Assembly (NCBI RefSeq): GCF_005405485.1
Contig: NZ_BJED01000014.1
Coordinates: 65,392-129,391 of the forward strand
Length of the DNA stretch: 64,000 bases
Direction of reading: 5' to 3'
Origin: Enterococcus hulanensis
GTDB lineage: Bacteria; Bacillota; Bacilli; Lactobacillales; Enterococcaceae
This document shows positions 33,420 to 64,000 of the stretch, piece after piece. How positions within the stretch are numbered: the stretch's first letter is position 1; the number at the start of each line of letters is the position of its first letter. The translations under genes were made by a program, and so were the position numbers. Under the pieces are notes generated by a model, which made no database searches, had not been told where the DNA came from, and saw nothing but the letters and a program-made list of their open reading frames with translations.

Positions 33420-33510
33420 AAAAAAACACTTTATGATGAGTGCCGGCTTCCCAGACATTCTGGGAAGCGGCGCTGAGCTAGACTCGGAGAAAATCTCCAA
33501 CATCATAACA
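33420..33510 (-). ncRNA. L17 downstream element-like RNA after rplQ
   Basis: Downstream of rplQ an outer 8-bp stem TTATGATG/CATCATAA encloses two hairpins: a perfect 10-bp stem GCTTCCCAGA/TCTGGGAAGC with a 3-nt loop (33446-33468) and GGAGA/TCTCC (33486-33498). A T7 run follows the outer stem on the minus strand. The position and shape fit the L17DE RNA described for lactic acid bacteria and Listeria 3' of rplQ. The T run suggests it also terminates transcription. The family match is from memory. Nothing else is visible in 33294-33546. Confidence 0.65.
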
Positions 33511-33546
33511 CTCTAAAAGAATCATCTATAAAGTGAAGAGTGATTA

Positions 33547-61504: not shown

Positions 61505-63502
61505 TTATATTTTTCGTTCCTTAAGCCACGTTTTTCTTGTTTCACCTACGATCAGCGGTACTGTCTCATAAGTAACTTCACTATATTCAATTCCAAACCA
61601 GCGTTCTGGAGTAACCGTATGGTGCTTGATAGCCAGACGTGCTTGCATAACTTGCCGGTCCCATTTATCCAGCTTCGTCATATTCGACAACACCTCTTGA
61701 ATCATCACAAAACGAAAATCTCCGACCTGGCGTCCCGGTGTCAATGAATAATGTTGCGGTTGTTTCGGTAGTCGTCCCTGCTTCATCAGATCATGGATGA
61801 TCTGGCGTAGATAAACGTTGACGTCTTGTGAGATACGAAAGCCCAAATACAGTTTGACCTTCACAATAAAGTCGGTCCCCATCATATCGATACTATATTC
61901 TTCGGTGTAGGGTTCATCCGTTACCTCGACATTCACGAACCAATAAACTTTGGCACGCTTTAACCGTTTATCCAAAATCGAATAAATGAATTGCTGCGGA
62001 ATCTGATCCCCATCTAAACGCGGAACCAGAAAAACCACATTCGTCTGATAATACGGAATCCGATCGTCATCATGCAATTCTTGTAATTGCGGAAGATAGT
62101 CTTTGAAGTTTACATCTTGACTCGTATTTTCCTGCACTCGATTGCTGCGATACCAGATATACATCACACTTAATATCAAGAGGGCCATCGCCACCGCAAC
62201 GAACCCGCCGTGGAAAAACTTGGTTACACTAGAAATAAAGAAGAAGCCTTCTAGTGTTCCAAAAAAGACTAGCATCAATATTGCTAAAAAGCGGGACGTT
62301 CCTTTTTGAAGTAAATAATGATACAACAAGAAAGTCGTCATCAGCATTGTAACGGTAATCGACAGACCATACGCAGCCTCCATGTGACTAGACGTGCGGA
62401 ACGTCAAAACGATCAATGAACAGGCCGCCCATAAAATCAGATTGATAGCCGGAATATACATTTGCCCAATGCTTTTACCCGGATAGATAATCCGCATTCT
62501 CGGTAATAATTTTAATTTGATCGCCTCAGAAACTAACGTAAACGATCCGGAAATCAAGGCCTGAGATGCAATGACTGCAGCGATTGTCGCAAAGACGACC
62601 CCGAAAATCATCCAGCCATCCGGCAATATTTGGAAGAAAGGATTCAAATTTTCGATTCCTTCAATCGCAGCATTGCCCTTCACATGCAAAATCCACGCAG
62701 CTTGGCCGGCGTAATTCAACATCAAACAAAGCAGGACATACGGCCAGCTGATATGGATATTTTTCTTGCCCACATGGCCCATATCAGAGTACAAAGCTTC
62801 CGCCCCTGTTGTCGCTAAGAAAATACTTCCTAAAATAAAGATTCCCATTTTATTTTCAGGACTGAACAGCAAATGAATCGCATAATAAGGATTCAATGCT
62901 TTAATCACACTAAAATCATACGGAATATTCAATAAACCCATCAAACCTAAAAAAGTGAACCAAAGAAACATGATAGGCCCAAAAGCTTTCCCGACAAAAT
63001 CCGTACCAAAGCGTTGGATCAAAAATAAAAATAGCAGAATCACTAAGGTTATAATCACGATAACATTTTGATTATTACCGAATATTTGATAAAAATCCGG
63101 AATTCCTCTTAGTCCTTCGATCGCCGTCGTCACTGTCACGGCCGGGGTCAGCACGCCATCGGCTAATAATGCCGCACCGCCAATCATTGCCGGCACGATT
63201 AGATACTTTCCGCCTTTTCGCACTAAGGTGTATAAAGAGAAGATACCTCCCTCACCATGATTATCTGCCCTTAAAGCAATCAGCACGTATTTGACCGTGG
63301 TTAAAAGCATGACGGTCCAAAAAACCAGCGAGACTGCACCAAGAACAAAGTCCTGCGTGACAGTACTCAATCCGCCATTTTCTTCTAAAATAGCTTTCAT
63401 TACATACAAGGGGCTCGTTCCGATATCGCCGTAAACGACTCCCATCGCAATCAGCAATCCAGCTGCCGAAAGTTTTTTAGTATGATCTTTCTTTTTTTCC
63501 AT
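61505..63502 (-). CDS. kup: KUP family potassium uptake protein
   Basis: A 665-residue K+/H+ symporter in the cell membrane. It has 12 membrane segments beginning AAGLLIAMGVVYGDIGTSPLYV, the family signature, then GGIFSLYTLVRKG and LLADGVLTPAVTVTTAIEG, and a cytoplasmic C-terminal domain from about residue 460. CAGGAGAG precedes the ATG. A leader of about 360 nt with a manganese-type riboswitch lies upstream, which is unusual for this family. In related bacteria Kup transport is controlled by c-di-AMP. Confidence 0.96.
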   Translation of the reverse strand: MEKKKDHTKKLSAAGLLIAMGVVYGDIGTSPLYVMKAILEENGGLSTVTQDFVLGAVSLVFWTVMLLTTVKYVLIALRADNHGEGGIFSLYTLVRKGGKYLIVPAMIGGAALLADGVLTPAVTVTTAIEGLRGIPDFYQIFGNNQNVIVIITLVILLFLFLIQRFGTDFVGKAFGPIMFLWFTFLGLMGLLNIPYDFSVIKALNPYYAIHLLFSPENKMGIFILGSIFLATTGAEALYSDMGHVGKKNIHISWPYVLLCLMLNYAGQAAWILHVKGNAAIEGIENLNPFFQILPDGWMIFGVVFATIAAVIASQALISGSFTLVSEAIKLKLLPRMRIIYPGKSIGQMYIPAINLILWAACSLIVLTFRTSSHMEAAYGLSITVTMLMTTFLLYHYLLQKGTSRFLAILMLVFFGTLEGFFFISSVTKFFHGGFVAVAMALLILSVMYIWYRSNRVQENTSQDVNFKDYLPQLQELHDDDRIPYYQTNVVFLVPRLDGDQIPQQFIYSILDKRLKRAKVYWFVNVEVTDEPYTEEYSIDMMGTDFIVKVKLYLGFRISQDVNVYLRQIIHDLMKQGRLPKQPQHYSLTPGRQVGDFRFVMIQEVLSNMTKLDKWDRQVMQARLAIKHHTVTPERWFGIEYSEVTYETVPLIVGETRKTWLKERKI

Positions 63503-63733
63503 TTTGCACTCTCCTGTTACAGCCCAACGCTGAATCGGTATTGGTTTGGTTTCTCTCTAGCGAGTAAAATTGTAAATTTGCTGCGCCTATCATTCTGCTA
63601 ACCTGCAGACAGGAAGCAGAACTGACAGCTACATCTGTTGCAATATGTTCATTTTTCTAAAACCGAGAAAAATGTTGCTGTTTTCGTACGCATACGATTT
63701 CTCTAACGCACTAAAGTGCGAAGAGAAACTCGC
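63503..63733 (-). promoter_or_regulatory. structured part of the kup leader after the riboswitch
   Basis: No ORF. Three good hairpins occur in the kup leader: TTTCTCT-CGCAC / GTGCG-AGAGAAA (63698-63728), CATTTTTCT / AGAAAAATG (63650-63674) and TTCTGCT-CCTG / CAGG-AGCAGAA (63593-63621). I see no convincing second promoter, so kup seems to depend on the promoter before the riboswitch. Confidence 0.5.
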
Positions 63734-63774
63734 AAAAAAGACCTAAACAACAGCTCTCACTATTGTTTAGGTCT
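63734..63774 (-). terminator. riboswitch-controlled terminator
   Basis: A perfect 12-bp stem AGACCTAAACAA / TTGTTTAGGTCT followed by six T on the minus strand. Its 5' arm contains GACCTAAA, the 3' strand of the aptamer P1 stem, so aptamer folding and termination exclude each other. Confidence 0.85.
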
Positions 63775-63858
63775 TGCAAATTATCTTATAGACCAGTGCT
63801 TGAGCACTTGATGTTGATCTAAAAGCATAGAGCTTGCTCTATGTCGCTACTCCCCTAA
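63768..63858 (-). promoter_or_regulatory. yybP-ykoY (manganese) riboswitch
   Basis: On the minus strand the aptamer opens with TTTTAGGGGAGTAGC and closes with GCAAGACCTAAA, the conserved ends of the yybP-ykoY family. Between them lie a CATAGAG/CTCTATG hairpin (63826-63843) and an arm carrying ATCAACATCA around AGTGCT/AGCACT (63790-63821). P1 pairs TTTAGG with CCTAAA. Members bind Mn2+ and mostly switch export genes on. The shared strand with the terminator predicts transcription on with ligand, as in other members. Confidence 0.85.
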
Positions 63859-63869
63859 AACTTATCCGT

Positions 63870-63898
63870 ATTATCCAGTTTTCAAAGAGATTTGTCAA
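63870..63898 (-). promoter_or_regulatory. promoter of the riboswitch-kup transcript
   Basis: A perfect TTGACA (63893-63898), 17 bp and GATAAT (63870-63875) on the minus strand, right after the pnp stop. Confidence 0.8.
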
Positions 63899-63919
63899 AG
63901 AATAACCTCAAAATAGAAT

Positions 63920-64000
63920 CTATTTTTCTTCTTTTTTGCTTTCTTCTTCTTTCAACATAGCTTTACGAGAAGCGTTCACGCGACCTTGACGATCGATCTC
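63920..64000 (-). CDS. pnp: polyribonucleotide nucleotidyltransferase, C-terminal end only
   Basis: Only the last 26 codons are in the window. EIDRQGRVNASRKAML is the end of the S1 RNA-binding domain of PNPase, followed by a charged tail EEESKKEEK. The identification rests on this short piece; another S1-domain protein is possible. The kup promoter begins 20 bases after the stop. Confidence 0.75.
   Translation of the reverse strand, partial: EIDRQGRVNASRKAMLKEEESKKEEK

Follow-up and report, generated by a model that had tools for sequence, protein, structure and literature searches.

A P4-less leader of the yybP-ykoY riboswitch family upstream of the potassium transporter gene kup in Enterococcaceae and Lactococcus

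The target genes of the yybP-ykoY riboswitch class are mostly metal transporters, and known members of the class are tied to metal export and detoxification, whereas the branch described here is aimed at K+ import. Mn2+ is also a cofactor of c-di-AMP enzymes, and the c-di-AMP riboswitch differs from yybP-ykoY in both fold and ligand. In L. lactis, the Mn2+ site of this class was reported to comprise residues G9, U39, C40, A41, U44 and C45 (PMC9190785). The switch of S. pneumoniae mgtA, described as a three-way junction, has a P-type ATPase gene as its target (PMC9495176), as opposed to kup here. A riboswitch before K+ import genes has a precedent in the c-di-AMP (ydaO-yuaA) riboswitch of other Bacillota (PMC6108528), which, according to a review, seems to be absent from lactic acid bacteria; the same review describes KUP proteins as K+/H+ importers (symporters) and names c-di-AMP as a ligand of L. 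lactis KupA and KupB (PMC10243994).

Our literature searches covered open-access papers, subscription literature being outside their scope. In this body of work, we found no co-mention of yybP-ykoY and kup as whole words, and nothing on a manganese riboswitch together with potassium uptake or on yybP-ykoY and kup together with riboswitch and potassium; a link between a riboswitch and kup was not stated in the titles or abstract starts among the matches listed. A conserved branch of the class aimed at K+ import, in terminator and ribosome-binding-site versions, would connect two ion systems treated as separate and would allow their cross-talk to be tested directly in harmless laboratory strains.

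Layout of the kup leader

We analyzed a 64,000-nucleotide stretch of Enterococcus hulanensis DNA (the window), in which the kup locus lies on the minus strand. The upstream gene ends at 63920..64000 (stop codon 63922-63920) and, from reading its sequence, we take it to be pnp, of which this would be the C-terminal end. No open reading frame of at least 60 aa was found on either strand between 63503 and 63919, and the next gene is kup (61505..63502), which encodes a 665-aa KUP-family K+ transporter (Pfam K_trans, 1.8e-148, and K_trans_C, 2.1e-14) and is preceded by the ribosome-binding site AGGAG at 63511..63515. The initial annotation had described a near-consensus promoter, an aptamer and an overlapping T6 terminator directly upstream of kup with no other gene between, and this arrangement was borne out. 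The promoter, of the sigma-70 type (TTGACA-17-GATAAT, 63870..63898), agrees with the consensus at 11 of 12 positions and is the sole minus-strand site among three promoter-like sites in 63400-64000; from its position, transcription would start at approximately the first base of the aptamer.

The aptamer itself occupies 63764..63863 and has the three-way-junction form of the yybP-ykoY (Mn2+-type) class, without helix P4. Its outer helix is formed by the P1.1 5' strand UUUAGG (63854..63859) and the 3' strand CCUAAA (63766..63771); in relatives, 95.8% of the alignment cells of P1.1 are paired and five of its six pairs have changed on both sides. The 5' side of loop L1, GGAGUA (63848..63853), follows, and then the P1.2 5' strand GC (63846..63847), which pairs with 63777-63776. 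Next come the P2 hairpin CAUAGAG-CAAG-CUCUAUG (63826..63843), all seven pairs of which have changed on both sides in relatives, and the P3.1/L3/P3.2 arm (63789..63821), with UCAACA in L3. The UCA at 63817-63815 corresponds to U39-C40-A41 of the L. lactis Mn2+ site (site residues from PMC9190785, register by alignment). At the place of the canonical P4, comparison of length and folding shows an unpaired linker (63778..63788).

The intrinsic terminator (63734..63775) consists of a 17-bp hairpin, 63775-63738, and a T6 tract, 63739-63734, with a folding energy of -23.2 kcal/mol when taken alone. By overlap scoring and folding, the 5' arm of this hairpin includes the 3' strand of aptamer helix P1. 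Folding of the leader gave z = -4.04, and none of 200 shuffled sequences was equally stable.

Relation to the yybP-ykoY class

The RF00080 covariance model gave no match at its gathering score of 45 bits in the window or in the genome that contains it, and no match at E up to 10 in a 551-base scan of the leader region. When the scan was narrowed to 161 bases, the model scored 18.2 bits (E = 0.0017) and placed GGGGAGUAGC and UCAACAU on its conserved loops L1 and L3. Related P4-less loci behaved alike: of 20 that were scanned (9 before an ATPase gene and 11 before kup), none reached the gathering score and five were matched at E <=1. The gathering score is apparently missed because the leader is a shorter form without helix P4, and we take the failure of RF00080 as a limit of the model, not of homology.

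The decisive evidence for the aptamer is comparative: conservation, covariation and a covariance model of our own. Neighborhoods of kup were gathered from 52 loci, 35 of Bacillota and 17 of Bacteroidota type, and this leader was found before kup in 22 of the 35 Bacillota loci, in Enterococcus and Lactococcus. Model R1 was built from kup leaders only, namely these 22 and that of the window (23 in all). It matched every one of the 30 canonical loci, defined as the best-scoring RF00080 loci of the order, at E values from 0.0005 to 0.82 (21 at E <=0.01 and 9 at 0.011-0.82), the first unrelated match having E = 2, and among the 17 kup loci of Bacteroidota type there was no match at E <=1. Since R1 recognizes all canonical loci and no Bacteroidota-type kup locus, the kup leaders are homologous to the known class. 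The initial annotation had proposed an RF00080 search as a check, with a missing covariance-model hit counting against its reading; on RF00080 alone, with 18.2 bits at best, that reading would have failed, and the P4-less model R1 was needed for a positive result. Its central statement, that a yybP-ykoY-type riboswitch lies upstream of kup and is aimed at it, is upheld by conservation, covariation and R1. Among other Rfam families, an sroD match of the leader (24.9 bits against a gathering score of 50) was set aside as chance similarity. A c-di-AMP switch was ruled out as the identity of the leader, as RF00379 had no match in the genome or in scans of the kup leader.

Covariation was assessed on a model-based alignment (A3) of 63 kup leaders with 24 base pairs, in which 94.5% of the cells were paired and 18 of the 24 pairs had changed on both sides. 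When the structure was slid along the alignment as a control, 19-44% of the cells were paired and 6-9 pairs had changed on both sides; none of 500 shuffles reached any of five covariation measures. RNAalifold on a MAFFT alignment (A1) gave 18 pairs, 8 of them changed on both sides, and missed P2; A3 was used because P2 of the Lactococcus rows is misaligned in A1. The A3 figures lean toward the fitted structure, except for P1.2, a 2-bp helix that was outside the model. P1.2 reads G-C/C-G in 62 of the 63 kup leaders, as opposed to A-U for G-C in 36 of 38 ATPase leaders of alignment A4 (G-U in one, unreadable in one), which indicates a compensatory change between the two classes. The loops are equally constant, with CAAC of L3 in 63 of 63 kup leaders and GAGUAGC of L1 in 62 of 63.

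The kup leaders thus resemble the RF00080 class, as represented by L. lactis yoaB and E. coli mntP and alx, in the L1 sequence GGGGAGUAGC, an L3 with UCA, the P1/P2/P3 layout, the 3' sequence GCNAGACC and a P1 that serves as antiterminator. The metal-site residues (the G of L1 and U-C-A of L3) are present by alignment, with C in place of U39 in one leader (L173). The kup leaders differ from the class in scoring below the Rfam gathering score, in having a K+ importer as target and in lacking the fourth helix, P4: the linker between the L3 GG and GCNAGAC is 14-17 nt long, against 23-31 nt from the L3 GG to the 3' GCNAGACC in the 30 canonical loci. None of the 63 kup linkers folds at -3 kcal/mol or better, in contrast to 18 of the 30 canonical ones, where this fold is P4. 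The ATPase leaders matched by R1 have linkers of 14-15 nt, none of which folds so among 37 measured (1 of 38 was unmeasurable); these leaders, which lack P4 in all 37 measured cases and by eye in Streptococcaceae, are in this respect like the mgtA switch of S. pneumoniae (PMC9495176).

Distribution before kup and P-type ATPase genes

Among 105 Enterococcaceae genomes, R1 gave 103 matches in 79 genomes. A kup gene was found in 92 of the 105, one kup place being kept per genome after three rows were dropped (two short fragments in G311 and, in G328, half of a kup that is divided between two contigs). The aptamer precedes kup on the same strand, 49-717 nt upstream, at 58 of these 92 loci. The remaining 45 matches all precede a P-type cation ATPase gene of one family, and 24 genomes have both a kup-type match and another R1 match. 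The ATPase family was assigned by Pfam on seven representatives; for four representatives, the top-scoring NCBIfam models were of Ca2+ type, all below cut-off save for one PMCA-type match of L184. The genome of the window itself contains a second P4-less Mn-type aptamer, on the minus strand of contig C6 (123640-123741; 2641-2742 of L121), before a P-type cation ATPase gene, and this aptamer was likewise missed by RF00080 at the gathering score. Because the RF00080 cut-off misses the P4-less form before both kup and the cation ATPase (0 of 20 scanned loci reached it), the metal regulon is probably under-annotated in Lactobacillales.

In a sample of the order, R1 matched 90 of 395 genomes. Inspection of 80 loci (77 R1 and 3 RF00080 matches, with one match of the sample, G133 at 55.7 bits, left out) assigned 30 to kup, 50 to the ATPase and none to any other gene. 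The aptamer was found before kup in five named Lactococcus species and at 11 loci of two further families, which makes four families of the order in all. One Lactococcus, L. piscium, has the switch before kup as well as before the ATPase gene. Of 196 genomes in the family of a Lactococcus genome, 15 had matches, which lie at 11 kup loci and 9 ATPase loci; for the family of G087, the figure was 4 of 201 genomes, and all four matches precede the ATPase. A sample of the class yielded matches in 4 of 348 genomes, one of which lies outside the order (G979, a weak match of 33.3 bits). All of these counts are lower bounds: R1 favors the P4-less form, and in searches of more than 40 genomes stricter filters were applied, at the cost of weak matches.

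R1 had no match before kup at the other 34 of the 92 Enterococcaceae loci, and a search of these 34 leaders for aptamer remnants gave a best full-model hit of 16.1 bits (E = 0.087), which was not convincing. The kup gene of Lactobacillus kefiranofaciens also lacks the aptamer, though its genome has an ATPase-type switch. Given these aptamer-less loci in both groups, the link between aptamer and kup is not obligatory. Mapped onto a 36-row Kup tree, the label for the aptamer requires 4 changes, compared with a mean of 10.9 for shuffled labels, and none of 500 shuffles was as low; long branches in this tree may misplace Lactococcus. The tree fits an old association with losses, and a single origin is not proved by it.

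Several kup loci had features of their own. By eye, the aptamer-less leaders of L244, L249 and L254 have GTGAGTAGCA right 3' of the -10 box, which may be a relic of L1. Those of L262, L263 and L265 (E. thailandicus type) have a terminator of their own, GATTCAAG..CTTGAATC followed by a T run, perhaps another attenuator before kup. In genus g5, a same-strand P-type ATPase gene immediately precedes the kup aptamer at 13 of 13 loci of the genus among L091-L120 (L107-L110 and L112-L120) and also in L270-L272; no R1 match was found before this ATPase gene in L270-L272 and no Rfam match in L270 at 1200-1800. In L174, kup downstream of the aptamer is divided into two reading frames of 200 and 449 aa, apparently through a break or misassembly.

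Expression platform, ligand and competing readings

In 59 of the 63 kup leaders, a terminator uses the 3' strand of P1 as part of its 5' arm. In L130, the hairpin is present with, by eye, a weak U tract. No such terminator was found in three leaders of one genus (L134, L136 and L137), and here the strand of P1, CCUAAGUU, can base-pair with its complement AACUUAGG(AGG) within AACUUAGGAGG, just before the kup ATG. P1 is thus placed to act as an antiterminator in 59 of 63 leaders and as an anti-sequestor of the ribosome-binding site in 3 of 63. Since its strand is either shared with the terminator or able to pair with the ribosome-binding site, formation of the aptamer corresponds to the ON state; the platform appears to have changed in the three genomes, while the ON sign and the kup target seemingly did not. 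In the equilibrium fold of the window leader, forcing P1 costs 12.8 kcal/mol relative to the terminator form, and folding indicates that P1 and the aptamer can form before the 3' arm of the terminator is made. A more stable terminator form is what a ligand-dependent antiterminator would lead one to expect.

We consider it probable, with good though not full confidence, that kup is under the control of a riboswitch of the yybP-ykoY (Mn2+) family that turns transcription on, its ligand, its direction in the cell and its reason being presumptive. RNA synthesis would start at the aptamer, and at high free Mn2+ (possibly Ca2+ too) the metal would dock L1 on L3 and keep helix P1 closed. With P1 closed, its 3' strand could not enter the terminator hairpin as 5' arm, and RNA polymerase would read into kup; at low metal, the more stable terminator would form and kup would be off. 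This mechanism agrees with the Mn2+-dependent antitermination reported for L. lactis yoaB (PMC9190785). Because the same genome has a second such switch before a P-type cation ATPase gene, the exporter ATPase and the K+ importer would be switched on together. Our best reading is that binding of Mn2+ (perhaps Ca2+) would antiterminate kup together with the ATPase. Control of K+ uptake by manganese was one of three alternatives offered by the initial annotation, next to a Kup that moves something else and a manganese gene lost from the gap, and with Mn2+ as the presumed ligand it appears the best of them.

Mn2+ alone is not assured as the ligand, because the nearest studied three-way-junction aptamer, that of S. 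pneumoniae mgtA, reportedly has a higher affinity for Ca2+ than for Mn2+ (PMC9495176). The same RNA switch might control kup in answer to a signal other than Mn2+ as such (Ca2+, the divalent cations in general, or alkaline pH through its effect on metal affinity), and we regard this as possible but rather unlikely. The P4-less form is common to the kup and ATPase leaders, and the mgtA aptamer binds both Ca2+ and Mn2+ (PMC9495176, PMC11434433). Furthermore, the Kd of the E. coli mntP switch for Mn2+ was reported to be 17- to 22-fold lower at pH 8.5, and pH alone to activate an mntP reporter partly (PMC9603457). On the other hand, activation of mgtA in vitro was reported to be stronger with Mn2+ than with Ca2+ (PMC9495176), and in our alignment all 63 kup leaders retain the equivalent of A41, to which Mn2+ selectivity has been attributed. 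K+ itself was rejected as a ligand on logic, because an ON switch that answers K+ would raise K+ import when K+ is plentiful.

As for the reason why a divalent metal would induce Kup, we prefer cation balance, in which K+/H+ import would offset the divalent-metal load or the accompanying alkalinity. Because KUP proteins are reported to be K+/H+ importers, their induction at high Mn2+ or alkaline pH would bring H+ in with K+ (PMC10243994). In the portions of the open literature available to us, we found no explanation of the physiological logic of a Mn switch before a K+ importer. The distribution of the leader suggests that many lactic acid bacteria tie K+ uptake to the level of manganese or a similar metal. 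A broader and distinctly tentative proposal, which we consider rather unlikely, is that many of these bacteria, apparently without a c-di-AMP riboswitch, have put transcription of a K+ importer under a divalent-metal riboswitch. The free divalent pool, which may increase when K+ drops or when the cytoplasm becomes alkaline, would then signal the need for K+, and a conserved RNA circuit would balance monovalent against divalent cations.

An ordinary metal-transport link would result if Kup here carried a divalent or other cation, in keeping with a class whose targets are reported to be mostly metal transporters (PMC9495176). This is very unlikely, as the protein has K_trans (495 bits) and K_trans_C domains, KUP proteins of L. 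lactis are reported as K+ importers (PMC10243994), and Lactococcus kup genes that are 58-62% identical over the aligned part carry the same aptamer; the suggestion that Kup moves something else found no support. The match to TIGR00794, the NCBIfam kup equivalog, is 385.7 bits and falls below the curated cut-off of 539.6; family membership by domain stands, and equivalence to the Kup of TIGR00794 does not follow.

It is just as improbable that the main role of the terminated leader is that of a trans-acting small RNA and not that of a switch of kup. RF02617 ('Streptococcus sRNA 10') matches 5 of 9 ATPase leaders at 36-50 bits, all under the cut-off of 56 (L198, L144, L157, L140 and L175), so such leaders may have been catalogued as sRNAs, and the RF02617 family may be the three-way-junction Mn-type leader. 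Against a role in trans, the kup leaders have a conserved switch geometry and, in three genomes, a ribosome-binding-site platform.

A last reading makes the leader a remnant: the gap would once have contained a manganese gene, and kup would have come to lie behind a switch that serves another purpose. This reading starts from the exporters that known yybP-ykoY members precede and from a gap of about 230 bases here, and we reject it as scarcely credible, because the aptamer precedes kup in four families of the order, kup begins only 49-64 nt after the aptamer at 11 of the 58 aptamer-bearing Enterococcaceae loci (717 nt is the longest gap), the switch strand of L134, L136 and L137 can pair with kup's own ribosome-binding site, and the gap is a dispersed repeat; we saw no sign of a lost gene.

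This repeat (63582..63734, minus strand) runs from the terminator toward kup, fills most of the 230-base gap, has 29 matches in the genome (the window copy included), is partly tandem and contains a 9-bp hairpin, CATTTTTCT/AGAAAAATG. By eye, its copies adjoin terminator U tracts in L005, L006 and L008. In E. songbeiensis (L020), the region before kup has a tandem array of another kind. Elsewhere in the window, an L17 downstream element (RF01708, 55.2 bits) was found on the minus strand at 33447-33514.
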